Virus record (IMG/VR): IMGVR_UViG_3300010883_000148 | Span: 1-36,641 of that record | Length of the DNA: 36,641 nucleotides | Reading direction: 5' to 3' (one strand) | Source: a virus | Part shown: in pieces, positions 8,844 through 27,198 of the stretch | How the letters are laid out: every line of letters begins with the position of its first letter | Numbering within the stretch: position 1 is the first letter of the stretch | Notes under the pieces: generated by a model | Told to the model about the DNA's origin: nothing | Database searches by the model: none | Seen by the model: the letters and a program-made list of their open reading frames with translations, nothing else | Position numbers and translations under genes: made by a program

Positions 8844-9338
8844 ATGGCTCAACAGAGCGGCGGCAACGAGCGATTCAAGGAGTGGCGGCAAGGCGAGCAG
8901 CTTTCCGCCGACTTCATCAATCGGGTTGCGTCTGCCGTCATGCGATCATCGACGATGGCTCGCGGCTCGGACATGATCGCCAACAGTAGCGGCGTATTCC
9001 CGCGACCGACGAAATCAACGTCATCGACAACTGCTGGCGGCGGCGTGCCGATCATCCGGTTCCAGCTCGTCAACGTTGACTGCGCCATCTGCATCGCACT
9101 CGGCACGGTCCTATCGCGGCCCGTCGGCGCGACTGAAGTGACGGGTGAGGCGGGCGGGCAAGTGACACTGTACGACTTCGCCGGGTGCTATTTCAACGCA
9201 CCGTCTGCCGACCTGACGGGCAAGCAGGGCTTCGCCGCGTTCCTGAACGGCGGAGCCGGTGACTGCGGTGTCGAGCCGATTGACACGGGGCGATGGGAAG
9301 TGTTCGCTCTTTGCTGTGCTGAGGAGTCGTGCCCGTGA
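8844..9338 (+). CDS. Tail-tip hypothetical protein
   Basis: 164 residues with an N-terminal helix (FKEWRQGEQLSADFINRVAS), a Ser/Thr linker and a C-terminal beta domain with five cysteines (VDCAICIALG, FAGCYF, CGVEPID, FALCCAEESCP). The 'FKEW..GE.L.A..IN.va' opening resembles the beginnings of several phage tail/fibre adaptor proteins ('.....G.......WNa....'). The cysteine-rich end foreshadows the next protein, whose GTG start overlaps this stop. A role as connector between the tail tip and the cysteine-rich protein is inferred from this. Confidence 0.5.
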   Translation: MAQQSGGNERFKEWRQGEQLSADFINRVASAVMRSSTMARGSDMIANSSGVFPRPTKSTSSTTAGGGVPIIRFQLVNVDCAICIALGTVLSRPVGATEVTGEAGGQVTLYDFAGCYFNAPSADLTGKQGFAAFLNGGAGDCGVEPIDTGRWEVFALCCAEESCP

Positions 9339-12129: not shown

Positions 12130-12145
12130 TGACAAAGGATACGTG

Positions 12146-12793
12146 ATGGGGATTCGACTGGCTGTGGGCCTGACAACGTGCCCACGGCAGGGGTTCAGCT
12201 ATCTGGGCGACACGCTTCGAAGTCTGGCCGATGCGGGGTTCGAGCCGAGGGTGTTCGACGACGCGAAGCGGGATCACGGGGCATACGGTGCCAGCAAGAT
12301 CGCACTGCGGTCGCTGCTGGACGCCGAGCCGGACGCTGACGGGTATCTGATATTTCAAGACGACCTGATTGCCAGCCGGAATCTGTCGGCCTACCTCGAC
12401 GCTGTGCTGTGGCCTGACGACGTAGCAAGCATCGGGGCCATCAGTCTGTTCACGCCGATGCCGCGAGCGGTCGAGGGCGTCACAGGGTTCGCTGCGGCCG
12501 ACTTCAGCAAGGACCGGCTGACGACGGGTGGGTTGGGATTGATCCTGCCCAATCACGCGGCCGAGACGTTGCTGCGTAATCCGCCGCGAGCGGGTAGTCG
12601 GCATGGCTGGGACTTGTCGGTTGCCGAGATGTGCATCCGCGAGAAGCTGTCATGGTGGTATCATCACCCGTCGCTGCTCAAGCACACCGGCGAGATTTCG
12701 TCGATTGCCGTTTGGCCCATCGACTGGCCGCCGCGTCAGTGCAAAGAATTGGTTGAGGATGCGGCGACGATCACGCCAGTCGCAGGTCGATAA
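12146..12793 (+). CDS. Glycosyltransferase-like protein, paralogue of the preceding gene
   Basis: 215 residues from ATG 12146 (AAAGGA at 12134-12139); GTG 12143 is also possible. It parallels the transferase half of the preceding gene: VGLTTCPRQ at the N-terminus, YLIFQDDLIASRNLSAYLD in place of YAIFQDDVAAYKNLRGYLD, TGGLGLILPN in place of RGALGLVFN, and HHPSLLKHTGE in place of HAPSLVEHTGQ. It lacks the cysteine domain. The DD motif and overall order support a nucleotide-sugar transferase. Its 3' end converges with a minus-strand gene, overlapping by 23 bases, so the leftward small-gene operon reads into it. Confidence 0.65.
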   Translation: MGIRLAVGLTTCPRQGFSYLGDTLRSLADAGFEPRVFDDAKRDHGAYGASKIALRSLLDAEPDADGYLIFQDDLIASRNLSAYLDAVLWPDDVASIGAISLFTPMPRAVEGVTGFAAADFSKDRLTTGGLGLILPNHAAETLLRNPPRAGSRHGWDLSVAEMCIREKLSWWYHHPSLLKHTGEISSIAVWPIDWPPRQCKELVEDAATITPVAGR

Positions 12794-13518: not shown

Positions 13519-13535
13519 CGTTTCGTTTCCGATCT

Positions 13536-13555: not shown

Positions 13556-13569
13556 GTTGTGTGTTGCGA

Positions 13570-13830: not shown

Positions 13831-13872
13831 CGTTTCGTTTCCTTGTTTGTGTTTGTGTTTCCTGATAAGAGT

Positions 13873-13914: not shown

Positions 13915-13986
13915 CAAAATCCAAAGTTTTTTGACAATCCGTTTCGCCCCGTTAGGCGACCCGCACGATACAGGCCGGTCGGGTGG

Positions 13987-14175: not shown

Positions 14176-14187
14176 CGTTTCGATTCC

Positions 14188-14385: not shown

Positions 14386-14421
14386 CGTTTCGTTTCCTTG
14401 TTTGTGTTTCCTGATAAGAGT

Positions 14422-14463
14422 AATCTAGCACAGATTGTGTGCGTATGTCAAACACAAACTGTG
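14422..14463 (-). promoter_or_regulatory. Dual-operator promoter, leftward copy 1
   Basis: On the minus strand TTGACA (14451-14446) and TAGATT (14427-14422), spaced 18 bases. Dyads at 14453-14463 (CACAGTTTGTG on the minus strand) and 14429-14439 (CACAATCTGTG) flank the -35 box, centres 24 bp apart. The downstream leader matches that of the 13.87 kb copy over more than 30 bases, so the two promoters are a recent duplication. Confidence 0.85.
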
Positions 14464-14518
14464 CAAATTCCAAAGTATTTTGATAATCCGTTTCGCTCTA
14501 CCCTGTTAGACTCTATCG

Positions 14519-14584: not shown

Positions 14585-15028
14585 ATGAGCAAGCACGGCG
14601 GGCGACGAACGGGGGCGGGCCGAAAACCGAAGGTGGACGGTGTCGCTGAGTTTCTCGTCGAAGATCACAGCGACGAACGGGGCCGACTGCGGGTGCTCGA
14701 CAATCTGCCGTTCGCAGTCAAGCGGGCATTCGTTCTCGACAGAATCCCCGCGACACAGCGAGCCGGTCACGCGCATCGCACCTGCCATCAGTTGATCTTC
14801 TGCGCGTCGGGTTCGTTTCAAGCCGAGACGGAGCAGCGACGACCGTACTCGTCGTTCGTGCGGAAGACACTGAAGCAAGGCGACGCGATGGTGATCCCGG
14901 CGATGCACTGGTTGACGCTCGACAAGTTCAGCAAACCGGCGATCTGTCTCGTGCTTGCGAGCGAACCGTTCAACGAAGCGGAGATGATCCGCGACTGGGA
15001 TGAGTTTCTGAAACTGACAGGAGAATAG
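14585..15028 (+). CDS. WxcM/FdtA-like sugar 3,4-ketoisomerase cupin with GGRRTGAGRK N-terminus
   Basis: 147 residues. Residues 35-140 match the WxcM-like/FdtA/QdtA cupin: RVLDNLPFAVKRAFVLDRIP, then RAGHAHRTCHQLIFCASGSF (catalytic-type HAH at 62-64) and a MVIPAMHWLTLDKFS strand. These enzymes isomerise nucleotide-linked 4-keto-6-deoxyhexose to the 3-keto form before transamination. The first 16 residues, MSKHGGRRTGAGRKPK, are of the 'GGRRxGAGRK' type seen at the start of phage small terminases and other DNA-associated proteins and are not part of the usual enzyme. First gene of the glycan cluster; GGGG directly precedes the ATG. No 3-aminotransferase of the FdtB type is obvious nearby, so substrate and product remain open. 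Confidence 0.8.
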   Translation: MSKHGGRRTGAGRKPKVDGVAEFLVEDHSDERGRLRVLDNLPFAVKRAFVLDRIPATQRAGHAHRTCHQLIFCASGSFQAETEQRRPYSSFVRKTLKQGDAMVIPAMHWLTLDKFSKPAICLVLASEPFNEAEMIRDWDEFLKLTGE

Positions 15029-15029
15029 A

Positions 15030-15329
15030 ATGCCCCGCACCGCACGAGTGAAGTTCACCGCCAAGGAAGTTCTCGCCGCGCTCGGCTTACCGGCCAGCAC
15101 GAAGATGGTATCGGCTCAGGCTCAATACCAAGGGTCGCTGATTCTGACGGTCGAGCACGCTGAACTGATTGACCACGACGGCATGCGCCCGCCTGTCGTT
15201 GACCCGCACTTCGGTCACGCGGAAGATGCGTTCCGATGGGATCAGAAGCCGCCCGTGTTGATGGGCGAGGACGGCGCGGCACATCGGAAAGAATTGCAAG
15301 CTCGACGAGATAAGAATGAAGGGAAGTGA
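15030..15329 (+). CDS. Hypothetical protein of the glycan cluster (99 aa)
   Basis: Starts one base after the cupin stop and is clearly coupled to it. The protein begins MPRTARVKFTAKEVLAALGL, giving a basic start and a helix, then SAQAQYQGSLILTVEHAELI (two strands), a His/Asp-containing VVDPHFGHAEDAFRWDQKPP and a charged C-terminal helix. No motif recognised. Its coupling to an enzyme of sugar-nucleotide chemistry is the only functional hint. Confidence 0.55.
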   Translation: MPRTARVKFTAKEVLAALGLPASTKMVSAQAQYQGSLILTVEHAELIDHDGMRPPVVDPHFGHAEDAFRWDQKPPVLMGEDGAAHRKELQARRDKNEGK

Positions 15330-15335
15330 TAGTTT

Positions 15336-15445
15336 GGTTCTGTGGCGTAACTGGCAAACGCCCCCAGCATGCGGGAGTCTTAGCGGTTTGCATGACAGGT
15401 GACTGATAGCCGTGGAGAATGCAGGTTCGAGTCCTGCCAGAACCA
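15336..15445 (+). tRNA. tRNA-like gene, 110 nt, Leu-type D arm, abnormal anticodon region
   Basis: Acceptor strands GGTTCTG (15336-15342) and CAGAACC (15438-15444) pair perfectly, with discriminator A. D stem GCGT/ACGC (15345-15348, 15358-15361) has a loop with GG, in a context like bacterial tRNA-Leu (TGGCGTAACTGGCAAACGC). The T arm GCAGG-TTCGAGT-CCTGC is perfect. CCA is not encoded. The 59 bases between D and T arms contain no normal 5-bp/7-nt anticodon arm. Instead CATGCGGG (15368-15375) pairs with TTTGCATG (15387-15394, three G-U pairs) around an 11-base loop with CTTAG, which would give UAG (Leu) if T80-A82-G83 region were the anticodon loop. Isotype is uncertain; it may contain an insertion or be a tRNA mimic. 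Confidence 0.65.
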
Positions 15446-15473
15446 CTTGGCGTGATAAGAAAGAGGGGAAGAC

Positions 15474-16271
15474 ATGAAGCTGTCAATTGTCACCGGCACC
15501 CGCAACAGACCCAAGAGCTGGGCAAGGTTCCTTGCGTCGGCGAAGGCAGCGGCGACGGTCGAGACGGAGATCGTTGTCGTTGATGCGAGTACCGGCCCGC
15601 AGTGGAGCCAGTCGGGGTACGTGACAGAACGCGGGGTGCCGCCGTACCACTTTGACATTCGATTGATCCGAGAGGGGGAGACGCGTCTCGGCCCGATTCG
15701 CGGATACAATCTCGGCTACCGTGAGGCACGAGGCGAGTACGTTGTCTGGCTAAACGATGACTGCGAGCTGATACCCGGCTGGGACGCGACGGCCATCGAG
15801 TTCATGGAAGCCAACCCAGCCTGCGGCATGGGCGTCATCTATTTCAAAGACCATTTCGGCGAGTTGGGTGCAGGCGACGCGGACGGCGACCCGCTTGCGT
15901 TCGGTGCGAGCTACGTTAATCAGGTAATTTTCGGCATCGTATACGCCAACTTCGGCATCATGCGACGAGAGGTGGGCGAGTCGGTGGGCTGGCACAGCGA
16001 AGACATCGGGTTTATGTACGGCGGCGATACCGATTTTGCATTCAAGATGATCATGGCAGGGCATCAGGTTCTGGCGATCCCCGAATGCCGGGTGATCCAC
16101 TGGCGGCAGCGAGACGACGAACGAGCTGAGACAATCGAGCAGTATGGCTACCGTGCCGACCGTGCGAAGTTCGACGCCAAGTGGGTCAACCAGATCGGTC
16201 AGTTGAAAGCAATGCAGAAGCCGTGGGCACATCTTGTCGGCAAGCGGAGCATCGGGGAACCGAAGGAATGA
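15474..16271 (+). CDS. Glycosyltransferase family 2 (GT-A fold)
   Basis: 265 residues from ATG 15474, preceded by GAGGGGAA. It begins with the GT2 pattern MKLSIVTGTRNRPKSWARFL, then EIVVVDAST, GPIRGYNLGYREARGEYVVW and the metal/nucleotide motif LNDD at 93-96 followed by C.LIPGWD. YGGDTDFAFKMIMAGHQVLA near residue 190 corresponds to the acceptor-side acidic motif, and IPECRVIH.R.. to the terminal strand. These enzymes transfer a sugar from a nucleotide donor with inversion. It lies between the tRNA-like gene and a methyltransferase whose start overlaps its stop. Acceptor unknown. Confidence 0.9.
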   Translation: MKLSIVTGTRNRPKSWARFLASAKAAATVETEIVVVDASTGPQWSQSGYVTERGVPPYHFDIRLIREGETRLGPIRGYNLGYREARGEYVVWLNDDCELIPGWDATAIEFMEANPACGMGVIYFKDHFGELGAGDADGDPLAFGASYVNQVIFGIVYANFGIMRREVGESVGWHSEDIGFMYGGDTDFAFKMIMAGHQVLAIPECRVIHWRQRDDERAETIEQYGYRADRAKFDAKWVNQIGQLKAMQKPWAHLVGKRSIGEPKE

Positions 16272-17542
16272 GCGACAAATCCAAGCGATTGCACGTGGGC
16301 AGCGGCACGGTCTACCTGACCGACTACACCAACGTCGAACTACCGTCGCCGGTGTCCGGCGCGGCGCTGGCGACGGACAACCCGCCCGGCGTCAATAAGT
16401 GGGGAACGACGGGCGACAACTATTACGGCAAGCTCGGCAACGTCACAATCGAGATGCTCCAGAACGGCCCGCCGATGGATCACCGCGACCTCATCTGCGA
16501 CATCTACGGCGAGTTCGGCAACCTACCCGCTGACGACGGCACCATCGAGGAAGTTTTGTCGCGGCAAGTCTGGGAGCATATGTCGCTGACCGAGTGCGAT
16601 GCGGCGATGGTTGAGTGCCGCCGCGTGCTTGCCGACGGCGGCATCCTACGCATCGACGTGCCGGATCACGAGGAGTCGCTGCGGCTGTTTGGCGAGGACA
16701 CAAAATGCCGACCGTTCTTTCACCGGCACATCTTCGGCTCGCGGCGCAACGATGCGGCTCATCATATTATGGGCTGGACTAGGGCTGGACTGGCCGCGTT
16801 CGTCAAGCGGCACGGGTTTGAGTTCGTCGCGGAAGAACCGAACATCCACGTTTATCCCGCGTTCTGTATCCGGTTCAGCAAAGGCCCGCACGATGTGCCG
16901 CTGGACGGCGAGATGGTCCCGCCTCGACAGTGGTTCGCCGCGTGGGAGTATTGCGGCGAGACGCCCGGCGAGCCGCTGATTGTGCCTGACGATCACAAGG
17001 TGCTGGAAGTGGGATGCGGAACTCGCCCGTGGCCTCGTGCTGATTACTATCTGGACAACGACGAGAGCGCGCGAGATAGCCTGTCGATGGACGCGCACGG
17101 CCGGTTCACTAAGGGGGACGCCGCCGACCTGCCATATGAAGACGGCGAGTTCGACTACGTATTCGCGTCGCACATCATGGAGCACGTCGAAGACCCGCGA
17201 CAGGTTGCGGCGGAACTCTCGCGCGTCGCGTCGGCTGGCTGCGTCGTCTGTCCGTCGAACATGAAAGACGCTCTGTTCGGATTCCACGAGGACGACCACA
17301 AGTGGTGGGCGTTGCCGACCAGTGAGGCCAACACGCTGCGGCTGATTAAGATTGACCCGGCTTGGATCGCCGCGATATTCGATGAAGACATGAGCAAGGC
17401 GATGCATCAGATGTTACGATTAGAGCATCGCCGGTTCGGCAAGGAAGGCCGCAAGCTGAAGAAGTGGTTCAACCGCAGCGAGCCGTTGCTCGATGTCGTT
17501 GTCAATTGGGAAGGCGAGTTGAAAGTGGAGTTGCTGACATGA
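16268..17542 (+). CDS. Tandem (two-domain) SAM-dependent methyltransferase
   Basis: 424 residues from ATG 16268 (ATGA overlap). Both halves look like class I methyltransferases. The first (residues 1-230) has LHVGSGTVYL as motif I, then EEVLSRQVWEHMSLTECDAA and LADGGILRIDVPDHE. The second (about 240-424) has KVLEVGCGTRPWPRADYYLD, GDAADLPYEDGEFDYVFASH, IMEHVEDPRQ and a C-terminal basic helix. Such pairs occur in polysaccharide clusters and could modify two hydroxyls, or one domain could be structural. Motif I of the first half is weaker (VGSG for EVGCG), so it may be inactive. Flanked by glycosyltransferases. Confidence 0.8.
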   Translation: MSDKSKRLHVGSGTVYLTDYTNVELPSPVSGAALATDNPPGVNKWGTTGDNYYGKLGNVTIEMLQNGPPMDHRDLICDIYGEFGNLPADDGTIEEVLSRQVWEHMSLTECDAAMVECRRVLADGGILRIDVPDHEESLRLFGEDTKCRPFFHRHIFGSRRNDAAHHIMGWTRAGLAAFVKRHGFEFVAEEPNIHVYPAFCIRFSKGPHDVPLDGEMVPPRQWFAAWEYCGETPGEPLIVPDDHKVLEVGCGTRPWPRADYYLDNDESARDSLSMDAHGRFTKGDAADLPYEDGEFDYVFASHIMEHVEDPRQVAAELSRVASAGCVVCPSNMKDALFGFHEDDHKWWALPTSEANTLRLIKIDPAWIAAIFDEDMSKAMHQMLRLEHRRFGKEGRKLKKWFNRSEPLLDVVVNWEGELKVELLT

Positions 17543-17832
17543 AAAAGAGGTCTGTGAAAAAACCGACTGACGGACTCAAGGGGGCAGGCCAGAAACTGAC
17601 CGCCCTATCAAAACAGATCGAGTCTGTGCTCCGCGCAGAAGTGACAATCTTTGTCGCTGACGAGGAACGAAACATGCTGAATACTCTTGCGGCTGTTGTT
17701 CGGACATACAATTCAATGCAACCGGGCGACGACATCGAGACTGAGGATTTCCACAGGAGCATCCGAGTGATCCAACGGATCATCTCACACAGGATCGCTC
17801 AGCGAGTTGATGAAGAATTATTTGAAGGCTGA
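17539..17832 (+). CDS. Hypothetical helical protein (97 aa)
   Basis: Begins at ATG 17539 in an ATGA overlap with the methyltransferase gene. The protein has a basic start (MKKRSVKKPTDGLKGAGQKL) and then looks entirely helical (SKQIESVLRAEVTIFVADEE, NMLNTLAAVVRTYNSMQPGD, RSIRVIQRIISHRIAQRVDE). No domain recognised. Such small helical proteins in glycan clusters may be adaptors, but nothing supports a specific role. Eight bases separate it from the next gene. Confidence 0.55.
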   Translation: MKKRSVKKPTDGLKGAGQKLTALSKQIESVLRAEVTIFVADEERNMLNTLAAVVRTYNSMQPGDDIETEDFHRSIRVIQRIISHRIAQRVDEELFEG

Positions 17833-17839
17833 TGCGTCA

Positions 17840-18787
17840 ATGAAGCCCATCCGCTACTACGTCGTGCCGCGTGAAGACGTGGAGCACGTCACGCAAGGCA
17901 CGCCGTTGCCCGGTGACTTTCTCGCCAATTGGGAAGCGGATCGGCCGGGCGTGTTGAACAAATCGACGCAGGACATCTTCGCCGCGAACTCGCGCAGCGA
18001 GCGGCAGGTGTGGAAAGACTTCTCGCTGTTCCGGCGGGTGCGAGATCCCAAGCGGGCCGACGTCGTCGTCTGCCAGAACTGGCTGGAACTGTTCCATGCA
18101 AACCGGCTCGACCAAGCGGTGCGGCTGCTGTTGCGGCACGTCGTGCTGACGTATCCCGACAAGATCAGCATCTTCAGCTGGAACCACGACGCCGACAGTC
18201 GCTCGCTGACGCTGTTCGGTGACCTGCCCGACAACTCCATCATTCTTGATTACAACACGTCGAAGCCGTGGCCGCAGTCGCTTGTGCTGCCGTTCTGGAA
18301 CGTGGCGACAGGTCAGATGGACCGCGTCGGCGACCGACCGTGGTTCGCGGGATTCAACGGGTACGTCGGCTCGGTCGCGTTGCGGCAGCAGTTGCGGTTC
18401 GCAATCTACCGGCAACACGGCTACCACTGCTCGGACAAGCGGCTGGGCGAGGCAGATTATCTGAAGCAACTGAGCGGGTTCAAGTATGCGTTGTGTCCGC
18501 GTGGCGGCGGGCTGTCGAGCTATCGGTTTTATGAGGCGATCCAGTGCGGAGCGGTTCCCGTGCTGTTCGCCGACGACGCGGTGCTGCCGTTCCCTGATTT
18601 GGATTACAGCAAGTTTTCGATTCGGTTGCCCGAAGCGGCGACGTATGAATTCTGGAAGATCGACGACGTGCTGCGCGAGGCTGACTGGGAATCGCTGCAC
18701 CGCGAGGTGTTGGCCGTGCAGCAACAGTTCAGTCTGCTTGGCGTGCAAAAGGCGATACATGCACGGGTGACGGAGATGATGGCATGA
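17840..18787 (+). CDS. Exostosin-like (GT47-type) glycosyltransferase
   Basis: 315 residues from ATG 17840; an upstream in-frame Met at 17807 lies inside the preceding gene. The C-terminal half carries the exostosin signature: SGFKYALCPRGGG (212-224), then YRFYEAIQCGAVPVLFAD (228-245) and LPFPDLDYSKFSIRLPE. The N-terminal half has SWNHDADSRS and ILDYNTSKPWPQSLVLPFWN. Exostosin-type enzymes have a GT-B fold and add sugars such as GlcA, Xyl or Gal to polysaccharides. The start fits the tight operon, and the stop overlaps the next ATG by 4 bases. Good family match; donor sugar cannot be read from the sequence. Confidence 0.85.
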   Translation: MKPIRYYVVPREDVEHVTQGTPLPGDFLANWEADRPGVLNKSTQDIFAANSRSERQVWKDFSLFRRVRDPKRADVVVCQNWLELFHANRLDQAVRLLLRHVVLTYPDKISIFSWNHDADSRSLTLFGDLPDNSIILDYNTSKPWPQSLVLPFWNVATGQMDRVGDRPWFAGFNGYVGSVALRQQLRFAIYRQHGYHCSDKRLGEADYLKQLSGFKYALCPRGGGLSSYRFYEAIQCGAVPVLFADDAVLPFPDLDYSKFSIRLPEAATYEFWKIDDVLREADWESLHREVLAVQQQFSLLGVQKAIHARVTEMMA

Positions 18788-19767
18788 GAATCCTCTGGCT
18801 CGACGAGTGCTACCCCGACGCATGGGCCAAGCTGGGCCGGTCGGCACGGTACTGTCACGGCACGGCAGATTTCTGGGACGTGGTCATCGAGAAAGAAACG
18901 CCGCACCTGTCGCGGACTGCATATCACAACGAAGGCCCGACCGACACGTCGGACGGGCAGTACGACGTGATCTGCTCACAGAACGTCGGGCGATGGAACG
19001 CAGCAGCACTGGACGACAACGCGGCGAAGATCGCGTTCGTGTCGTATCGGGCCAGCGACGCCGACATGATCGGCTTCGACTGCGTCTTCACGTCGTTCCC
19101 GTGGCTGGTCGGTCACCTGAGAAAGCTCGGCCAGCGATGCGAGTACATGCCGCTGGCGTTCGGCGAGCCTATCGTCTGCCGGACACTGAACCCCGACGGC
19201 GACGACCGACCGCGACCGGAAGGTCAGATGGCTGCGAGCAACCACGAACGCGACCTGCCGCTGACGTTCGTCGGCGGGCTGGGTCACTCGCACATCTGGG
19301 AGCGTGGCGAGAAGTGCTTGACCGCTGTGGCCGAAGCGTTCGACGAGTTCAAGTGGTGGGGCTACGCGGGTCCGCATTTGAGCGACGCGCTGCGGGCATC
19401 GCATCAAGGCGAGGCGTGGGGTTACGACTATTTCAACATACTGTTGCGGTCAGAGATTACGATCAACCGGCACGGCGAGATCGCCCGCGGCTTCGCAAAC
19501 AACATGCGGCTATTCGAGGCGACAGGTTGCGGCGCGTGTATGATCACCGAGCACTCGCCGAACATCGGCGATTTCTTCAAGCCGAGCGTCGAGTGCCTGA
19601 CGTACCAGTCGCCCGACGATCTGGTGTATGCTATCCGGTCGATACAAGGCGTCGATGGCGCGTCGCGGATAATCGCCGCGCGCGGGCACCGTCGGTGCCT
19701 TGCCGATCACTGTTACGAGAACCGCTTGCCGCAATTCATCGACGTGTTGGAGTCACTGGATGATTAA
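18784..19767 (+). CDS. CgeB-like GT-B glycosyltransferase
   Basis: 327 residues. N-terminal half: MRILWLDECYPDAWAKLGR, DVICSQNVGRW, then FDCVFTSFPWLVGHLRKLGQ and RCEYMPLAFGEP. C-terminal half: LTFVGGLGHSH, INRHGEIARGFANNMRLFEA, TGCGACMITEHSPNIGDFF and CLTYQSPDDLVYAI. This combination matches the CgeB/'glycosyl transferases group 1' proteins, where the E of 'RLFEA.GCG.....' contacts the donor nucleotide. Cytoplasmic; it probably extends the same oligosaccharide as its neighbours. The stop overlaps the following small gene. Confidence 0.8.
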   Translation: MRILWLDECYPDAWAKLGRSARYCHGTADFWDVVIEKETPHLSRTAYHNEGPTDTSDGQYDVICSQNVGRWNAAALDDNAAKIAFVSYRASDADMIGFDCVFTSFPWLVGHLRKLGQRCEYMPLAFGEPIVCRTLNPDGDDRPRPEGQMAASNHERDLPLTFVGGLGHSHIWERGEKCLTAVAEAFDEFKWWGYAGPHLSDALRASHQGEAWGYDYFNILLRSEITINRHGEIARGFANNMRLFEATGCGACMITEHSPNIGDFFKPSVECLTYQSPDDLVYAIRSIQGVDGASRIIAARGHRRCLADHCYENRLPQFIDVLESLDD

Positions 19768-19969
19768 ACGAAACGAGCGACGTCGGGCCAGCGACATGAA
19801 GCGGTGGAACCTGCGCCAGCGGTCTGCGTATATGCAGCGAGCGGGAATATCGCCGAATACATTGGCACCGACGGTGAAGCAACTGCGACACACCGATGAC
19901 GCGGGCACAGAATACGTCGATCCACAATGGGACAATACGAGATGGGCTGGAGTAAAAGTCGGCGTCTGA
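19760..19969 (+). CDS. Small basic protein directly upstream of the radical SAM gene
   Basis: 69 residues from ATG 19760, overlapping the glycosyltransferase stop by 8 bases and sharing a TGATG overlap with the radical SAM start. It begins MIKRNERRRASDMKRWNLRQ, continues with RSAYMQRAGISPNTLAPTVK and ends RWAGVKVGV. The N-terminal half is strongly basic and helical. Its tight coupling to a radical SAM/SPASM protein raises the possibility of a substrate or partner peptide. It lacks the Cys-rich or repeated core of familiar RiPP precursors, so this is only a suggestion. Confidence 0.55.
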   Translation: MIKRNERRRASDMKRWNLRQRSAYMQRAGISPNTLAPTVKQLRHTDDAGTEYVDPQWDNTRWAGVKVGV

Positions 19970-20694
19970 TGCGATTCCCGCAGTGGATCACCATCGACTG
20001 CCACAACTACTGCGACGCGAGTTGCGGCTATTGTGTGTACGCCGAGCTGGCGGCTGACAATGAGTACCCGCAGTCGTTCATGGACTTCGGCCTGTTCGAG
20101 CGGCTCGTCGCCGAGATGGTTGAGCACGCCGACGAGATTGATTCGACGCGGTTCGGGAACATCGCAGAGCACTTTATGACGCCGAAGCACTGGTTTTACA
20201 CCGAGCACTTCCTCGCCAGCGGATTGACGATGTATATCACCAGCAACATGACGCACATCGACGCGGCGACGATGGACCGGCTCGACGAGCTGGGATGGGA
20301 CCACGGCGAACTGGTGGCTCACGTCCAGCCGGGCATGGGTGTCGATTACGAGAACCAACTCCTGAATCTGAAAGAGGCACAGCGGCGGTGGGGCGACAGG
20401 GTGCAGCACTGCGTGATCGACCCGCCGCGAGGCTGGGCGGATTATGATGCGTCGATCCCGTTTCGCAAGGCGACACGCTGCGACGCGGGGCGACCTGACC
20501 ACACGATGATCATCGGATTCGACGGCCGAGTGCAGTTGTGCTGCCAAGACGTTCGGCAGTCAGTCATCGTCGGCGACTTGAACAACGAGACGATCAGCGA
20601 GGTATGGAACTGCGAGAAGGTCGCCGACGCGCGGCGAGCGTTGTCGAACGGTGAGATGAAACTCTGCAACAATTGCGAGTGGGGTGCGACGTGA
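19969..20694 (+). CDS. Radical SAM protein with SPASM-like C-terminus
   Basis: From ATG 19969 the product has 241 residues. FPQWITIDCHNYC leads into the cluster motif CDASCGYC (Cys15, 19, 22; C-x3-C-x2-C), which binds a 4Fe-4S cluster and SAM. The C-terminal part has IIGFDGRVQLCCQDVRQS, VGDLNNETISEVWNCE and LCNNCEW, the layout of a SPASM/twitch auxiliary cluster domain. Alternative starts at 19927 and 19942 exist but overlap the upstream gene and lack a Shine-Dalgarno. In glycan clusters such enzymes may perform sugar dehydration or epimerisation, or peptide modification. The substrate cannot be deduced. Confidence 0.88.
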   Translation: MRFPQWITIDCHNYCDASCGYCVYAELAADNEYPQSFMDFGLFERLVAEMVEHADEIDSTRFGNIAEHFMTPKHWFYTEHFLASGLTMYITSNMTHIDAATMDRLDELGWDHGELVAHVQPGMGVDYENQLLNLKEAQRRWGDRVQHCVIDPPRGWADYDASIPFRKATRCDAGRPDHTMIIGFDGRVQLCCQDVRQSVIVGDLNNETISEVWNCEKVADARRALSNGEMKLCNNCEWGAT

Positions 20695-20736
20695 CGATCA
20701 CCGACGCGAGTCCTGATCTGATCAAGGAAGTGTGCG

Positions 20737-21279
20737 ATGGAGTCAACTGAGACGTGGAGCGAGAAGCGGAAGCAGATCGCCGAACACATCGAGCGGCACG
20801 GCGTTGACCGGCACCGCGAGTGGGGCATCGTCCGACAACTGGTCAACACAGACTACAAGCCGCACAAAGCGTTCCTGCGATTTTATGAAGAACACATCGG
20901 GCCGATCTCGGCGGTTGACTCCATCGTCGAAGCGGGGCCGGGCATCGGTACGCTGGCGTCGGTAATTTACGCGAGCGGATTCAAAGGAAAGTACACGTCG
21001 TTCGACTTCCCCGAAATGCAAACGATTCAGCAGTACGCATTGGGCGGATACGACGTGGAGTATGTCAACACGGTCGATGAGCTGCCGAAGGCTGCCGGGC
21101 TGTTCATCGCGTCGTTCTCCGTCGAGGAGATGCCCGCCGAGTTGCGGTTCAACCTGATGGATCGGGCCAGCGGGTACGGCAGCCATCTGCTACAATTTAA
21201 CGGACCGATTCGCATTTTCTTTTCTCTCGTTGATCGGCACAAAGGCTGGTTGAACAGCGGCAACAAGTGGGCGAGATAA
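20737..21279 (+). CDS. SAM-dependent methyltransferase-like protein (180 aa)
   Basis: Starts at ATG 20737 after AAGGAAG (20724-20730). N-terminal helices (SEKRKQIAEHIERHGVDRHR, HKAFLRFYEEHIG) precede SIVEAGPGIGTLASVIYASG, which is motif I (E-x-G-x-G-x-G), then YTSFDFPEMQ. The overall shape fits a small Rossmann methyltransferase of the 'putative sugar O-methyltransferase' type. It is short and ends soon after the fourth strand, so it may be truncated relative to family members of about 230-300 residues. The stop overlaps the next ATG by one base. Confidence 0.7.
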   Translation: MESTETWSEKRKQIAEHIERHGVDRHREWGIVRQLVNTDYKPHKAFLRFYEEHIGPISAVDSIVEAGPGIGTLASVIYASGFKGKYTSFDFPEMQTIQQYALGGYDVEYVNTVDELPKAAGLFIASFSVEEMPAELRFNLMDRASGYGSHLLQFNGPIRIFFSLVDRHKGWLNSGNKWAR

Positions 21280-21992
21280 TGAGCGACGACACCTGTATTC
21301 TGATTCCATCTTGCGACGCATTCTCCGATGCTCATCCGCCATTCATGGCGTGCATGGAAAAGTATTGGCCGTATCGCCACTGGCCGATGCGCGGGCTGTC
21401 GGAGTACGGCTGGGGCGAACATCCGCTGGCCGTCGGCGACGACATGGGCTGGTGCAATAACTTGATTCACGGGCTGGAGCAGATCGACGAGGATTATGTG
21501 CTGATGTTTCTCGAAGATATGTTCATTTGCGAGCCGCCGGATCAGGCCGCGTTGAACAAGGCTGCGATGCTGGTGCGGGACGTTGACGTTGGTGCGATTC
21601 GCGTCGGGCCGGGTGCGGAAGAATGCGAGGCGACGGATGACCCCGGTGTCGGGCGAATGTTCCGGTCGAGCAACTATCGCATCGGCACATCGCCGACAAT
21701 CTGGAGCAAAGAATTCCTGCTGTTTGTGCTTCGCGGGCCGCGCATCAATACGGCGTGGGACTTTGAGATCGTCGGCACCAAGCAGTCGGTCGCACCGAGC
21801 GGCAAGGCGATACTGAAGATGACGCAGATGCCGCCGCCTGTGCAGGTTCTCTACACGGCGATCACTCGGGGACGCTGGGAAGAAGGGGCCTTGAATTGGC
21901 TCCGTCGGGTTGATATAGAAGTTGAAACCGACAGGCCGGTGAAGGGGTACGAAGTGGGGCAACGATGGCCGAAGGTGGAGAGCGACGAATGA
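21279..21992 (+). CDS. Glycosyltransferase-like protein with LEDMF acidic motif
   Basis: 237 residues from ATG 21279 (TAATG overlap). N-terminus CILIPSCDAFSDAHPPFMAC, then a hydrophobic strand with an acidic turn, DYVLMFLEDMFICEPPDQ, similar to the 'F.EDD' nucleotide/metal site of GT-A enzymes. VGAIRVGPGAEECE and YRIGTSPTIWSKEFLLFVL follow, ending in a helical region. It resembles the 'glycosyltransferase family protein' group that recognises sugar acceptors in LPS-type clusters. Family-level evidence is moderate. It overlaps the next gene by 4 bases. Confidence 0.65.
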   Translation: MSDDTCILIPSCDAFSDAHPPFMACMEKYWPYRHWPMRGLSEYGWGEHPLAVGDDMGWCNNLIHGLEQIDEDYVLMFLEDMFICEPPDQAALNKAAMLVRDVDVGAIRVGPGAEECEATDDPGVGRMFRSSNYRIGTSPTIWSKEFLLFVLRGPRINTAWDFEIVGTKQSVAPSGKAILKMTQMPPPVQVLYTAITRGRWEEGALNWLRRVDIEVETDRPVKGYEVGQRWPKVESDE

Positions 21993-23200
21993 AGCGACGA
22001 ATCAGGCTGGGGCATGTGGCGGTAGGCGAGGTCGAGCGCAACCTGCTGGCCGACGTGATCGCACAGCAGCGGCTGTCCTATGGGCCGAAGACCCGCGAGT
22101 TGGAGCAACGCATCGCGGCATTGCACAACGTCAAGCACGCGGTCTTCATGGCGAGTGGGACGTGCGCGTTGCAGGTCGGGCTGGAATCGATGAAAGAGAT
22201 CCACGACTGGCCGGACGACGGCGAGGTCATCATCCCGGCAACGACGTTCATCGCCACGATGTCGGCTGTGATTCACGCGGGACTGCGCCCGGTGCTGTGC
22301 GACGTTGAGGCCGACACGTTCGGGATGGATTCCGCCCGCATCCGCGAACACGTCACCGACAAAACGGTTGCCGTGCTGCCGGTGCATCTGCTCGGTCGAG
22401 CGTGCAAGCTGGGCGACATTATGCGGGTGACACGGGGCGGCACGGGAGAGCGGTACATACCCACCGCTGAAGACTGCTGCGAGTCTGTTGGCGTAGGAAT
22501 TGACGTCGTGGCGGGTAGGATAATGGTCGGCGAGCAAGCCGCGTTCGCGGCAATCTCGACCTACGTTTGCCATCACCTGTCAACTGGCGTCGGCGGTGCG
22601 GTGCTGACGAACAACGATGAGCTGGCGACGATCTGCCGGTCACTGATTCAGCACGGGCGTGACCCGTCGTATCTGTCGCTCGACGACGACTCGCCCGAGA
22701 CGGTTGACGCGAAGTATCGCTTCGTGCGTTGGGGACATAGCTACCGCGGTTCGGAGCTGCAGGCCGCGCTGGGTCTGGCTGGCGTCAAGTGCATCGACGG
22801 ATGGAAGTCGCTACGGAGACGAGTCGAGAAGCAACTGAACGAGCGGTTGCGTGGCCTACCGCTGTTGACGCTGCCGAGTTTCCACAAAGGCGACTCGCCG
22901 CTATTCTATCCGTTCGTCGTCGCTGGCGGCTGCGAAGATTTGGTGCGACACTTCGAGCAGCAAGGCATCGAGACGCGGCCGATGATGCCGCTGCTGAATC
23001 AGTCGCCGGTGATTGATTATATCCGCGATGACTTTCATCGCGAGAAGGTTGCAATGACGCAAGCATACTGGCGGAAAATGAAATGGCCCGTCGCGTCCCG
23101 CTTGCTCGACGAGGCATTTATTATCGGCTGCAATCCCGGCATGAGCGACGACGACATTGATTATATTGGCGAGGTGGCGAGGAACTTTTTGGAAAGGTAA
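21989..23200 (+). CDS. DegT/StrS-family PLP enzyme of the ColD/E1 (His-for-Lys) 3-dehydratase type
   Basis: 403 residues from ATG 21989. It shows the DegT/DnrJ/EryC1/StrS fold: LSYGPKTRELEQRIA, MASGTCALQVGLES, EVIIPATTFIAT and a PLP-binding TAEDCCESVGVG (D162). Where aminotransferases have the Schiff-base lysine ('..TKN...GEGG'), this protein has CHHLSTGVGGAVLTNND, with His195-His196. The same replacement marks ColD (GDP-4-keto-6-deoxymannose 3-dehydratase) and E1/RfbH. This points to C3 deoxygenation of a 4-keto-6-deoxy sugar nucleotide. With the GDP-mannose dehydratase and the fucose-synthase-like gene downstream it suggests GDP-colitose. Length fits ColD (about 390). Aminotransferase activity is unlikely without Lys. 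Confidence 0.82.
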   Translation: MKRRIRLGHVAVGEVERNLLADVIAQQRLSYGPKTRELEQRIAALHNVKHAVFMASGTCALQVGLESMKEIHDWPDDGEVIIPATTFIATMSAVIHAGLRPVLCDVEADTFGMDSARIREHVTDKTVAVLPVHLLGRACKLGDIMRVTRGGTGERYIPTAEDCCESVGVGIDVVAGRIMVGEQAAFAAISTYVCHHLSTGVGGAVLTNNDELATICRSLIQHGRDPSYLSLDDDSPETVDAKYRFVRWGHSYRGSELQAALGLAGVKCIDGWKSLRRRVEKQLNERLRGLPLLTLPSFHKGDSPLFYPFVVAGGCEDLVRHFEQQGIETRPMMPLLNQSPVIDYIRDDFHREKVAMTQAYWRKMKWPVASRLLDEAFIIGCNPGMSDDDIDYIGEVARNFLER

Positions 23201-23205
23201 TCGAG

Positions 23206-23868
23206 ATGAGCGACGAACTATGGACCGACCCGTGGTGCGACCGTGACGTGGCCGAGCAGCAGATGGCGGGCGTCAAGGCCGACATGGCGTCGTGGCTGGG
23301 CGGTCAACCGCACGCGGCGTTTGACCCGTATTGCGCGGTGCTGTTCCACACCGACGACGTGCACAGCGTTCTCGAAGCGGGCTGCGGCTGCGGGCAGTAT
23401 GCCGAGGTGACGCAGGCCAGCGGGCAGGTTGCCGATGACGTGTCGTTCACCGGCATCGACGCATCGGCGTATGCGATCAATCTGGCGCGAAAGCACTACG
23501 GGGCGTCGGGCATATACTATCAGTGCAACGCGGACAGCATCGCCGAGGATGACGGGGCGTTCGACCTTGTCGTCAGCGGCTCGCTGATCGGCCACGTTGC
23601 CGACTGGCAGGCGGTGGTCGGCGAGCTGTGCCGCGTGTCGAAGCGGTACGTGATGCTGCACCGGGTTCAGTGTCACGGTGCCGATATGATGTCTCGCGTC
23701 AAGACCAAGACAGCCTACGGCGTCGAAATGAAAGAGCGGTCATTCGACGGGGCTGAACTGATCATGTCGGTCGAGACGCGATTCAACATGCGGCACGTAT
23801 TCTCGACGACGTGGAGTAAGACCCGCCGAAGTTGGCAATTGTCGTGTCTGTTTGAGAAGGTGGGCTGA
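23206..23868 (+). CDS. Class I SAM-dependent methyltransferase
   Basis: 220 residues from ATG 23206, after GGAAAGG. Motif I is SVLEAGCGCGQYAEVTQASG, followed by FTGIDASAYAINLARKHYG (acidic residue at strand two), CNADSIAEDDGAFDLVVSGS and ELCRVSKRYVMLHRVQCHG. This is a complete Methyltransf_11/12-like core. The acceptor is probably a sugar, given neighbouring glycosyltransferases, though a protein or small molecule is possible. Its last base overlaps the next start by one. Confidence 0.82.
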   Translation: MSDELWTDPWCDRDVAEQQMAGVKADMASWLGGQPHAAFDPYCAVLFHTDDVHSVLEAGCGCGQYAEVTQASGQVADDVSFTGIDASAYAINLARKHYGASGIYYQCNADSIAEDDGAFDLVVSGSLIGHVADWQAVVGELCRVSKRYVMLHRVQCHGADMMSRVKTKTAYGVEMKERSFDGAELIMSVETRFNMRHVFSTTWSKTRRSWQLSCLFEKVG

Positions 23869-24698
23869 TGCAATACGTAACGCACTTCGATTCAGCCTAC
23901 CGTGCCCACGGCATGGCGTTGATCGCGTCTATGCAGGAATACTGCGAGCCGTTCGAGCTGACGGTCTTGGCACTCGACCACAAGTGCTATCGGTATCTGC
24001 TGGATCAGAATCTCGGCGACAACGTCCGCATCATCAGCCTGTCGTCGTTCGAGTTGAAGTCGAGGCATCCGCTGCACGTCATCCGGCAACAGAAGACGTG
24101 GAAAGAATACTGCTGGCTGTTGGAGCCGCTGCTGTGTCAGTCGATGCTGGAAGACATGGGCGTCGATGCGTTTGTGTATGTTGACGCCGACTCGTTTTTC
24201 TTTGGCACGCCGTCGTTCCCGAAAGGTGCCGCCGTCGCGTTGTCTCCGCACAACTTCCCCGACGGGCAGACGCATCGCGAGGCGACGGTCGGGCGGTTCA
24301 ACTTCGGCTTCGGGTACTTCGCACGCTGGCAGGCGACGATTGATCTGGTAAGCTGCTGGGTCGATGACACGCTGGAACGATGCGATGGCAACAGCGCAGG
24401 CCATCAGATGAGTCTCGACGACTGGCCCGACGTGATTGGCACGCTGTTCACCGAGCTGCCGCCGACGATCAACGTCGGCCCGTGGCAGCACGCGGAGATC
24501 ACGGGTGACCGGCCGACGATAGGCGGCGAGCCGCTGGTGCATATGCACTTCCATGAGCATCGACGGAGACTAGTCGGCGGCAAAAATCCGGTGATGCTCA
24601 AGGGGCAGCGATGGAACCGGACTGACTACCCTATTCACCCTGAGACTTTGAGCAGCGTGTATCTTCCTTACGAGCGAGTTTTGGAACGGTATATTTAG
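23868..24698 (+). CDS. Nucleotide-sugar transferase (GT8-like, DxD)
   Basis: 276 residues. YVTHFDSAYRAHGMALIASM is followed by FELTVLALDHKCYRYLLDQ, IRQQKTWKEYCWLLEPLLCQ and VYVDADSFFFGTP (103-115), whose DAD is the metal/donor site of GT-A enzymes. HNFPDGQTHREATVGRFNFG and GYFAR then form the acceptor region. The 'K....Y.wtl.P.l....l' and 'YlDaD..f' pair identifies this group of sugar transferases found in capsule and LPS clusters. It lies directly before the GDP-mannose dehydratase gene. Confidence 0.82.
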   Translation: MQYVTHFDSAYRAHGMALIASMQEYCEPFELTVLALDHKCYRYLLDQNLGDNVRIISLSSFELKSRHPLHVIRQQKTWKEYCWLLEPLLCQSMLEDMGVDAFVYVDADSFFFGTPSFPKGAAVALSPHNFPDGQTHREATVGRFNFGFGYFARWQATIDLVSCWVDDTLERCDGNSAGHQMSLDDWPDVIGTLFTELPPTINVGPWQHAEITGDRPTIGGEPLVHMHFHEHRRRLVGGKNPVMLKGQRWNRTDYPIHPETLSSVYLPYERVLERYI

Positions 24699-24699
24699 A

Positions 24700-25653
24700 A
24701 TGAAAACCGCACTACTCACCGGCATCACCGGCCAAGACGGCAGCTACATCGCCGAGCTATTGCTGTCGAAAGGCTACACGGTTCACGGCATCGTTCGCCG
24801 CTCGTCAACGCTGGCGGGGCAGTGGCGATTGGCGGAGTGTATCGACCGGATCACGCTGCACTTCGGCGACATCATCGAAGGCGTGCGGATGGCGCAACTG
24901 GTGCGGGACATCCAGCCCGACGAGGTCTATCATCTGGCCGCTCAGTCGCACGTTGCCGTCTCGTTCGATCAGGCGTCGTACACGATGCAGTCGATTGTCG
25001 GCGGGACGATCAACATGCTCGAAGCGGTGCGGCACTTCTGCCCGACGGCCCGTTATTATCAGGCGTCATCGTCGGAGATGTACGGCTCGGCACCGCCGCC
25101 GCAGAGTGAGGACACGCCGATGCAGCCGCGGTCGCCGTACGCGTGCGCGAAGCTGGCCGCCTATCACTCGGTGCGGAATTACCGCGAAGCGTATGGGCTG
25201 CACGCATCGAACGGCATCCTGTTCAACCACGAGTCACGACGACGCGGCGAGACGTTCGTCACGCAGAAGATTGTCGGAGCGGCGAAGGCGATCAAGGCGG
25301 GTACGCAGGACAAGCTGATTCTCGGCGACTGCTCGACGATGCGGGACTGGGGCCATGCGGCGGATTACGTGCGGGCGATGTGGTTGATGTTGCAGCAGGA
25401 CGCGGGCGACGATTACGTTGTGGCGACGGGCGAGCAGTATTCGATACAGGAGTTTTTGCATCAAGTGTTTTGCTGCGTTCTCGGTGACGACTGGAGATTC
25501 ACGCATTCTGGATGCGTCACGTTCGACGACCCAGCGTTCACGCGACCGCTCGACGTTCCGTCGCTGTGCGGCGATGCGTCGAAGGCCCGGCGCGTGCTGG
25601 GCTGGGAACCGACGATTGACTTTGCCGGGTTGGTTGATGGGATGGTACGATGA
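24700..25653 (+). CDS. gmd: GDP-mannose 4,6-dehydratase
   Basis: 317 residues. Extended SDR enzyme with TGITGQDGSYIAELLLSKGY (NADP Rossmann motif, 7-26), VRRSS, VYHLAAQSHVAVSF, SSSEMYGS (123-130), the YxxxK pair SPYACAK (Tyr147, Lys151) and NHESRRRGETFVTQKI (176-191). These segments are diagnostic for GMD, which converts GDP-D-mannose to GDP-4-keto-6-deoxy-D-mannose. Length is slightly short (family about 345), with a compact C-terminus. No mannose-1-phosphate guanylyltransferase is in the window, so GDP-mannose must come from the host. The product feeds the fucose-synthase-like gene at 25997 and probably the ColD-like gene at 21989. Confidence 0.95.
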   Translation: MKTALLTGITGQDGSYIAELLLSKGYTVHGIVRRSSTLAGQWRLAECIDRITLHFGDIIEGVRMAQLVRDIQPDEVYHLAAQSHVAVSFDQASYTMQSIVGGTINMLEAVRHFCPTARYYQASSSEMYGSAPPPQSEDTPMQPRSPYACAKLAAYHSVRNYREAYGLHASNGILFNHESRRRGETFVTQKIVGAAKAIKAGTQDKLILGDCSTMRDWGHAADYVRAMWLMLQQDAGDDYVVATGEQYSIQEFLHQVFCCVLGDDWRFTHSGCVTFDDPAFTRPLDVPSLCGDASKARRVLGWEPTIDFAGLVDGMVR

Positions 25654-25856
25654 CCCGTAAATTCCATCCGTTCGACTGGCACATTCCAGTCGGGCAAATA
25701 AATTGCGTTCGGCCGGGCGACACCGTGTTGGTCGAGGGAATAAGGCACAGGGTCAACACGACTGACGGCAACAATAAGCCGGTTGACATGACGCCGCTCA
25801 ACCCGTTCACCGACACACTGGATCTGATTGCCGAGGTGTGCGATGAAGCTGTCTGA
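25650..25856 (+). CDS. Small hypothetical protein (68 aa)
   Basis: Starts at ATG 25650 (ATGA overlap with gmd) and overlaps the next small ORF by 14 bases. It reads KFHPFDWHIPVGQINCVRPG, then DTVLVEGIRHRVNTTDGNNK and a C-terminal FTDTLDLIAEVCDEAV. The beta-rich start is reminiscent of small SH3-like proteins, but no family is recognised. Retained because of its tight packing inside the operon. Confidence 0.5.
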   Translation: MTRKFHPFDWHIPVGQINCVRPGDTVLVEGIRHRVNTTDGNNKPVDMTPLNPFTDTLDLIAEVCDEAV

Positions 25857-26007
25857 CTGGTTTGAAACTTGCGACATGATCGTCAGGCGAGAGCAGGTAT
25901 CCAAGGCGCTTCGTAAAATAGAAAAGATGGGCGGCTGGGACGCGGCAAAGAAGTGCTACGACTTGAAACAACTACTCAGCGAAATTGAGAGCGACGATGA
26001 ATCTTGA
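25843..26007 (+). CDS. Small helical hypothetical protein (54 aa)
   Basis: A short ORF from ATG 25843 to TGA 26005-26007 encodes MKLSDWFETCDMIVRREQVS, then a basic helix KALRKIEKMGGWDAAKKCYD and LKQLLSEIESDDES. It overlaps the previous gene by 14 bases and the next by 11, the same packing seen throughout the operon, which favours it as a real gene. No motif. Without it there would be a 140-base gap in an otherwise gapless operon. Confidence 0.45.
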   Translation: MKLSDWFETCDMIVRREQVSKALRKIEKMGGWDAAKKCYDLKQLLSEIESDDES

Positions 26008-26956
26008 CGGCAAGCGAGTTCTGATTACCGGCGGGCATGGGTTCCTCGGCGGCTACGTCCGCGATGCGATGGCGCGATGCGGGGCCGACTACATCTCGCC
26101 GCCGCGCCGCGAATACGACTTGACCAAGTCGCACGACACCCGACTGCTGATAAAAAACATCAAGCCGGAAATCGTGATCCATCTGGCGGCTGATGTCGGC
26201 GGAATTCAGTACAACAAAGCCAACCCCGCGTCGGTGATTTATAATAATCTGGCGATGGGTCTGAACGTCATCGAGGAATGCCGCAGAGCTGACGTCGCGA
26301 AGCTGGTGTTCGTCAGCACCGTATGTGCGTACCCGAAACATTGCCCGACACCGTTCGTCGAGTCGGCGATGTTCGACGGCTACCCAGAGGAAACAAACGC
26401 ACCCTACGGGATCGCCAAGCGGGCACTCGGCGTGATGCTTGATGCGTATCACCGGCAGCACGGCATGGCGTCGGCGCATCTGGTGCTGGCGAATCTGTAC
26501 GGCCCCGGCGATAACTTCGACCCTGCGTCGTCGCATGTGATCCCCGGTATGATTTGTAAGATGGCGGCTGCGCGTGCCTCTGGGGCACGCACAGCGACGC
26601 TGTGGGGGTCTGGTCGTCCAAGCCGAGAGTTCCTCTACGTCGCTGACGCTGCTTCTGCGGTGCTGCGGGCGGCCGAGTCGATTGGCGACCCGTCCCCGAT
26701 CAACATCGGCACAGGGTGCGAAACGACAATCAGCCTACTGGCTGACATCATCGCGGGCGAAACGGACTTCGACGGCGAGATCAACTGGGACACGTCGATG
26801 CCCGACGGTCAGCCGAAGCGGCGGCTGGACGTGACACAGGCTAAGGCTCGCATGCAATGGGAGTCATCGACTCCGCTGGTTGACGGCATCGCCAATACGG
26901 TGCAGTGGTTTCTCGCGAACCGCGAGACGCTCGGTCAGCGTCACGTCACGCAGTGA
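25997..26956 (+). CDS. GDP-L-fucose synthase-like epimerase/reductase (or GDP-colitose synthase)
   Basis: 319 residues from ATG 25997 (TTG 25985 is in frame but lies in the upstream ORF). Signature parts of the GFS family: VLITGGHGFLG (8-18), HLAADVGGIQYNKANPASVI (62-81), VFVSTVCAYPK with Ser107 and Cys110, PYGIAK (Tyr137, Lys141) and the SHVIPGMI segment with His180. Cys and His here correspond to the C3/C5 epimerisation acid-base pair, and Ser-Tyr-Lys to reduction. It acts on GDP-4-keto-6-deoxymannose (fucose) or, after ColD-type deoxygenation, on GDP-4-keto-3,6-dideoxymannose (colitose). Both routes share this fold, so I leave the symbol blank. End of the rightward glycan cluster; its 3' end overlaps a convergent gene. 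Confidence 0.9.
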   Translation: MNLDGKRVLITGGHGFLGGYVRDAMARCGADYISPPRREYDLTKSHDTRLLIKNIKPEIVIHLAADVGGIQYNKANPASVIYNNLAMGLNVIEECRRADVAKLVFVSTVCAYPKHCPTPFVESAMFDGYPEETNAPYGIAKRALGVMLDAYHRQHGMASAHLVLANLYGPGDNFDPASSHVIPGMICKMAAARASGARTATLWGSGRPSREFLYVADAASAVLRAAESIGDPSPINIGTGCETTISLLADIIAGETDFDGEINWDTSMPDGQPKRRLDVTQAKARMQWESSTPLVDGIANTVQWFLANRETLGQRHVTQ

Positions 26957-27198
26957 CGCACGGTGCGGCGTGTACGGTGCTTGTATCGGGCGGCGAGGTA
27001 TTGTGCCTTGGTCCCGCGCAGCTGTCGCCAGCCGCGTGTTGAGTCGTGCCAGTGCCACAGCGGGCCGTCGCCGGGCAACGCCCACGCGGGCAACTCGCTG
27101 TGCGTGACGTATACCGCCGCGATGCCGTCAGTCACGTTCCAGACGTGGGTCTGCGGGGCGGCGGTCAGGATTACGGCGAGCAGTGCGGCAGCGATCAT
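26941..27198 (-). CDS. Small secreted protein coupled to the lipase
   Basis: From ATG 27198, which overlaps the lipase stop as ATGA, the product has 85 residues. MIAAALLAVILTAAPQTHVW is a clear signal-peptide-like N-terminus with a possible cleavage after TAA. The mature part contains VTDGIAAVYVTHSELPAWAL, three or four Trp/His (GPLWHWHDSTRGWRQL) and a basic end. Being the third gene in the leftward lysis-type cassette, it may act in the periplasm or outer membrane, for example as a partner of the lipase or a spanin-like part. No lipobox cysteine is present, so it is probably not a lipoprotein. Confidence 0.6.
   Translation of the reverse strand: MIAAALLAVILTAAPQTHVWNVTDGIAAVYVTHSELPAWALPGDGPLWHWHDSTRGWRQLRGTKAQYLAARYKHRTRRTVRHCVT

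Follow-up and report, generated by a model that had tools for sequence, protein, structure and literature searches.

The glycan gene cluster and its phage setting

The window analyzed here is the whole of the IMG/VR virus record IMGVR_UViG_3300010883_000148 (36,641 bases), and it contains a cluster of glycan genes in which roughly a dozen enzymes are encoded rightward and in close succession (positions 14585-26956, 12 kb, 34% of the record; Table 1). All of the cluster genes lie on the same strand and the majority overlap or nearly abut, with a few longer gaps, one of which is occupied by a tRNA-like element. This agrees with a first-pass annotation of the DNA, which described a single overlapping rightward run containing two sugar-nucleotide enzymes of the GDP-mannose branch, a ColD-like pyridoxal phosphate (PLP) enzyme, a WxcM cupin, and a radical S-adenosylmethionine (SAM) enzyme, all of which were recovered as family matches. 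The predicted assignments that we regard as firm are those of the FdtA/WxcM cupin, the GT2, GT47, and Glyco_trans_1_2 glycosyltransferases, two methyltransferases, the SPASM protein, the PLP enzyme, Gmd, and the Fcl homologue; the remaining methyltransferase and the other two glycosyltransferases are weak candidates. For the confirmed families, the Pfam and NCBIfam E-values rule out chance.

The cluster encodes no membrane protein, none of its products having a 19-residue stretch with a Kyte-Doolittle hydropathy above 1.6. In addition, Pfam matches and this hydropathy scan revealed within the cluster neither a GtrA translocase nor a GtrB bactoprenol transferase, and no Wzx/Wzy-type flippase and polymerase with many membrane helices.

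Genes for a head-tail adaptor, a neck protein, and a tape measure occupy the left third of the record, and an AAA ATPase and a DUF2201 metallopeptidase-like protein are encoded at its right end. Since no capsid, portal, or terminase gene was recognized in the 36.6 kb, the record is taken to be a fragment. No tail sheath was recognized in the record either, and the virus, a tailed phage known only from environmental DNA, is therefore taken to be siphovirus-like. The closest tape measure in IMG/VR is that of a 61.6-kb contig, G001 (61% identity over residues 58-399).

Table 1. Genes and other features of the glycan cluster and of the region upstream of it
Feature	Coordinates	Strand	Basis
Cys-rich (9.4%), Ser/Thr-rich (21.8%) protein, candidate glycan acceptor	9329..10954	+	Composition; 3' of tail genes
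Putative glycosyltransferase, extra N-terminal domain common to phage G002	10945..12129	+	Paralogue of 12143-12793
Putative glycosyltransferase	12143..12793	+	phrog_854 glucosyltransferase, E 0.0053, weak
FdtA/WxcM-type cupin (sugar 3,4-ketoisomerase family)	14585..15028	+	Pfam FdtA, E 1.1e-25
Small open reading frame (ORF)	15030..15329	+	No Pfam match
tRNA-like element	15336..15445	+	Acceptor stem 7 bp, D arm, T arm, degenerate anticodon arm, long variable region
GT2 glycosyltransferase	15474..16271	+	Pfam, E 2.7e-14, firm
Two-domain SAM methyltransferase	16265..17542	+	Methyltransf_11, E 1.6e-18, two stretches; firm
Small ORF	17536..17832	+	Frame read directly
GT47 exostosin-type glycosyltransferase	17807..18787	+	Pfam, E 3.6e-20, firm
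Glyco_trans_1_2 glycosyltransferase	18784..19767	+	Pfam, E 2.9e-25, firm
Radical SAM/SPASM protein	19927..20694	+	SPASM, E 3.8e-11; weak radical SAM subfamily matches; CDASCGYC motif
Probable sugar O-methyltransferase (weak)	20737..21279	+	TIGR04371, E 2.7e-4, under cut-off
Possible glycosyltransferase (putative)	21267..21992	+	Homologues in phage sugar loci L078, L082
ColD-like PLP/PMP (pyridoxamine phosphate) sugar 3-dehydratase (predicted)	21965..23200	+	DegT, E 1.4e-61; His203 at PLP-lysine site
SAM methyltransferase	23206..23868	+	Methyltransf_11, E 6.4e-14; firm
Probable GT8-like GT-A glycosyltransferase	23868..24698	+	YVDAD motif; Foldseek glycogenin
GDP-mannose 4,6-dehydratase (Gmd)	24700..25653	+	Pfam GDP_Man_Dehyd, E 1.5e-116, well above cut-off
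Small ORF	25650..25856	+	From sequence
Fcl/ColC-type GDP-4-keto-deoxysugar epimerase/reductase	25985..26956	+	Epimerase, E 1.2e-53; likely start ATG 25997

The GDP-mannose branch and the ColD-like enzyme

Gmd found its best NCBIfam match in TIGR01472 (E 6.8e-118; 394 bits, the cut-off being 415). For the Fcl-type enzyme, the best NCBIfam match was Fcl (NF047922, E 2.6e-79, under its cut-off), and its matches in the PDB were GDP-fucose synthases (E 6e-59).

At the site where a DegT-family protein would carry the PLP-binding lysine, the PLP enzyme and all five of its viral relatives in the alignment have a histidine. A profile built from this six-sequence alignment and compared with solved structures ranked ColD first (E 6.3e-105), followed by CDP-4-keto-6-deoxyglucose 3-dehydrase and then by aminotransferases. 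His203 aligns to the ColD histidine, the same position being Lys or Asn in 2r0t, 3b8x, and 3gr9, which we take to be His188 mutants of ColD. As is known from ColD and E1 enzymes, a histidine at this site marks a 3-dehydratase; the substrate would be the one suggested by the neighboring genes. A scan of viral sequences with the window enzyme itself found nothing.

We placed the enzyme in a tree of 89 PLP-enzyme sequences, no characterized ColD being among them. Its branch is long and falls within a well-supported group of 17 sequences, most of which have an Ala-His motif where the window enzyme has Cys-His, and this clade is apart from the Ser-His and Gly-His sequences. Some of the same-clade enzymes have Gmd and Fcl nearby and several do not.

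Further support comes from gene neighborhoods. We compared 80 cellular loci retrieved with the PLP enzyme and 80 viral Gmd loci, which were the best matches, and the counts describe those sets rather than all genomes. Gmd and an Fcl homologue lie within 6 kb of a His-type PLP enzyme in 22 of the 80 bacterial or archaeal loci. Among the viral Gmd loci, an Fcl gene lies no more than 4 kb away in 63 of 80; a DegT enzyme is present as well in nine of those 63, and one of the nine (L070) is of the Lys type by sequence. The His-type trio is thus present in nine viral contigs, namely, eight of the 80 viral Gmd loci plus contig L083. Because Gmd, Fcl, and the His-type enzyme recur together, the trio appears to act as one pathway module, and a GDP-colitose-type route in the cluster is likely. 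A virenose-type route with C-methylation was also considered, by comparison with Coxiella as set out in the available part of one report (PMC3204966), and the cluster proteins included no match to a C-methyltransferase family.

Glycosyltransferases, methyltransferases, and the cupin

The first-pass annotation had counted at least five glycosyltransferases of four types and three methyltransferase genes. The three glycosyltransferases named above as firm hold up, a fourth (23868-24698) is likely, and the fifth (21267-21992) is unproven, so that the count is at least three and up to five. The fourth gave glycogenin as its top Foldseek matches (E 1e-4, from a low-confidence model with a pLDDT score of 47), and the viral scan yielded no relative of it. 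What points to the fifth is solely its resemblance (~30% identity) to one gene each in the phage sugar loci L078 and L082; it had no family match in Pfam or NCBIfam and no PDB match, its viral scan was empty, and its predicted structure (pLDDT 34) was unusable. As for the methyltransferases, the genes at 16265-17542 and 23206-23868 stand, but the one at 20737-21279 falls below the TIGR04371 cut-off.

The cupin matches FdtA, WxcM, and QdtA in the PDB (E as low as 1.3e-13) and retains the HAH motif. Its N-terminus (14585-14650), GGRRTGAGRKPK, is a basic stretch before the FdtA domain and may reflect a wrong start codon or a nucleic-acid-binding tail.

Comparable clusters in other viruses

A cluster of this size had been called rare for a phage of this style, and this holds only in part, since G001, G002, L083, and T4-like cyanophages carry similar sugar runs. 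The cluster is another example of arrangements that exist in other phages and in chloroviruses, and it is not unique. At the DNA level, a search of the cluster against the phage collection gave no match.

A close likeness is to phage contig L083 (IMGVR_UViG_3300009529_001498), which has Fcl, a same-clade His-type PLP enzyme, Gmd, GT2, GT47, and methyltransferases directly 3' of its head genes. It differs in its additional GT11, FkbM, and further epimerase genes, and no counterpart of the window's virion genes was found in it. In the 51-kb phage G002, Gmd and Fcl share 59% and 53% identity with the window enzymes and are accompanied by GT25 and sulfotransferase domains, GT61, an epimerase, and a hexapeptide transferase; a beta-ketoacyl synthase III and a Rieske-type oxygenase also lie amid these sugar genes (L090 8367-11289). 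The tail genes of G001 are followed by GT2, FkbM and other methyltransferase domains, and an MptE-like gene. In the window, G001, G002, and L083 alike, sugar-related genes adjoin head or tail genes.

T4-like cyanophage records contain clusters of 10-15 kb with Gmd and Fcl. In cyanophage ACG-2014f (Syn7803US26, 153629-163582), Gmd, an Fcl-type enzyme, and a His-type PLP enzyme annotated as hypothetical are adjacent and are joined by several glycosyltransferases. Unlike the window phage, it is a 197-kb T4-like virus, its PLP enzyme belongs to another clade (Gly-His), and its annotated glycosyltransferases are GT11, GT6, and GT25 as opposed to GT47 and GT2. Cyanophages S-SCSM1 and S-SKS1 likewise have Gmd, Fcl, and several glycosyltransferases, together with fucosyltransferases, according to the cyanophage records and the portion available of the S-SCSM1 report (PMC9602691), whose authors count 13 cell-wall/sugar proteins in S-SCSM1. 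S-SKS1 shares a GT47-like gene with the window. Both genomes exceed 200 kb, however, and that portion of PMC9602691 does not name a ColD-type enzyme for S-SCSM1.

Two systems with glycosylated particles are also relevant. Chlorovirus PBCV-1 encodes GMD and GMER, soluble glycosyltransferases, and a methyltransferase domain with the glycan as its presumed substrate, and its capsid-glycan transferases are reported without a membrane protein; it differs in infecting algae, in its far larger genome, and in that no 3,6-dideoxyhexose step is named in the accessible text (PMC5408694). In mycobacteriophages Che8, Corndog, and Myrna, glycosyltransferases encoded by the phage add glycans to capsid and tail proteins (Freeman 2023, as related in part of PMC12363180); the same text names no dedicated deoxysugar pathway.

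Proposed pathway and target of the glycan

Our results support the earlier proposal of a phage-borne operon for glycan assembly and methylation in which enzymes of the GDP-mannose branch accompany one of ColD type. We put at roughly even the chance that the cluster is a phage-encoded operon for a methylated deoxysugar glycan, most likely meant for the phage's own virion. A more specific version, in which a mid-sized siphophage-like virus makes a methylated colitose-type 3,6-dideoxyhexose glycan through a near-complete GDP-mannose-to-glycan pathway and attaches it to the virion, is tentative and on the unlikely side.

From the gene content we infer the reactions, the order of assembly, the methylation, and the acceptor. 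Host GDP-mannose would be converted by Gmd to GDP-4-keto-6-deoxymannose, from which the ColD-like enzyme would then strip the 3-hydroxyl group; C5 epimerization and C4 reduction by the Fcl/ColC-like enzyme would give GDP-L-colitose, or GDP-L-fucose if the 3-dehydratase were bypassed. A short glycan would be assembled in the cytoplasm by the soluble glycosyltransferases and methylated by the SAM enzymes. As in the glycosylated capsid of chloroviruses and the capsid and tail of mycobacteriophages, the target would be one of the virus's structural proteins, and the surface chemistry of the particle would change.

Several points weigh against a virion glycan of this kind. No glycan, acceptor, or virion has been observed. 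Fcl and ColC are indistinguishable by sequence for 25985-26956. The PLP enzyme is long-branched, with its clade beside the ColD-like Ser-His sequences, and its exact substrate is not fixed, as several clade members lack a nearby Gmd. The window holds no dTDP-sugar genes to pair with the FdtA-type cupin, and the host would therefore have to contribute to one sugar or more. In addition, a leftward module with its own promoter-like sites sits between the operon and the tail genes, which leaves co-transcription of the operon with the virion genes unsupported, and the position beside structural genes may reflect late expression alone.

The operon could instead alter the host surface (lipopolysaccharide, capsule, or S-layer glycan) during infection or lysogeny, for example, to block superinfection; we regard this as a serious alternative, although the less likely one. 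It is the usual reading for similar cyanophage genes (in the part of PMC9602691 at hand) and for groundwater-phage genes (PMC10980836), and Gmd-Fcl-ColD modules are common in cellular loci. Nucleotide sugars and transferases supplied by the phage would then modify lipid-linked glycans of the host on the inner side of the membrane, where a cluster without membrane proteins could still work. On the other hand, the cluster lacks a flippase, a polymerase, a bactoprenol transferase, and any membrane protein, unlike gtrABC modules (PMC3688519), and no integrase was recognized in the record, which is incomplete. A seroconversion or O-antigen system complete in itself is made less likely by the lack of any Gtr-type gene and of a translocase or polymerase embedded in the membrane. 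Modification of the phage DNA by the glycosyltransferases, giving glycosylated hypermodified bases as a counter-defense, is improbable: no hydroxymethyl-pyrimidine or thymidylate-synthase-type gene was present among the right-end genes tested in this incomplete record, and to our knowledge DNA glycosylation does not typically involve sugar methyltransferases, GT47, or a GDP-deoxysugar route. Some phage glycosyltransferases are nevertheless known to hypermodify DNA with diverse glycans (Pyle 2024, through the available part of PMC12619734).

That the cluster is a recently captured host polysaccharide locus or an assembly chimaera is more improbable still, even though many loci of bacteria and archaea combine Gmd, Fcl, and ColD-like genes. 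Phage genes lie to its left and phage-type genes to its right, similar sets occur in other phages, and its third-position GC (77%) resembles that of the structural genes (75%), so that no recent insertion or chimaera is obvious; the match is consistent with long residence in the phage. We searched a collection of one genome per species (84,980 species) with the PLP enzyme, whose identity to any genome match was at most ~40% and whose nearest relatives are from Gemmataceae and Elusimicrobia. The search turned up no bacterial locus that keeps this gene order at high identity, nor a host O-antigen locus highly identical in its gene set, the finding that the first-pass annotation had named as counting against its reading. 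The remaining window genes had only one weak GT2 and one weak GT8-like match in the best 80 cellular loci. An upstream glycosyltransferase searched in six Gemmataceae/Elusimicrobia-type genomes gave no match.

If the glycan is indeed on the particle, virus-encoded glycosylation, so far studied mainly in chloroviruses, giant viruses, and mycobacteriophages, would extend to an uncultured phage lineage, 3,6-dideoxyhexose formation included. That a His-type PLP enzyme accompanies Gmd and Fcl yields a concrete, testable enzyme prediction, and the presence of the same module in L083 and ACG-2014f suggests that phages have acquired deoxysugar pathways repeatedly, in part hidden under the label "hypothetical protein."

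Upstream and embedded elements

The two putative transferases upstream of the cluster, which the first-pass annotation had counted with it, are paralogues of each other (BLASTP E 3e-18), but their link to glycosyltransferases is a weak phrog_854 match (E 0.005). The longer one (10945-12129) has no Pfam match and has relatives with 44-48% identity in five viral contigs. In two distantly related phages, the window phage and G002, a Cys-rich protein is encoded just 5' of glycosyltransferase genes; in G002 it (L090 746-2491) directly precedes a glycosyltransferase-containing gene that shares the N-terminal domain of 10945-12129.

The leftward module of small genes (13201-14496) immediately precedes the glycan run; the first-pass annotation had overlooked both this module and the tRNA-like element. 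A 98-nt repeat (92% identical) occurs in it twice on the minus strand (13850-13947 and 14399-14496), each copy with a TTGACA-18-TAGATT promoter-like site, and the small leftward genes downstream of the repeats share the leader GGAAACGAAACG before their ATG. A similar leader precedes a plus-strand gene at 28476. A rightward ORF at 13357-14373 (338 amino acids) was dropped, because the region shows a reversed skew and contains the leftward ORFs that have the shared leader.

The tRNA-like element has a perfect acceptor stem and a 5-bp T arm with GGTTCGAGTCC, together with a 3-bp anticodon stem lacking U33 and a very long variable region. A cloverleaf site of this kind appeared in none of 100 shuffled windows. 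ARAGORN found the element only when introns were allowed; its default run missed it, as did the Rfam tRNA model, and the Rfam matches at this site, all far below thresholds, were not accepted. The element could be a decayed tRNA or a processing site. Beyond the cluster and on the strand opposite to it (27195-27959 and 27925-28341, minus strand), a Lipase_3-type hydrolase lies beside a one-helix holin-like protein, and the two may form a lysis pair.

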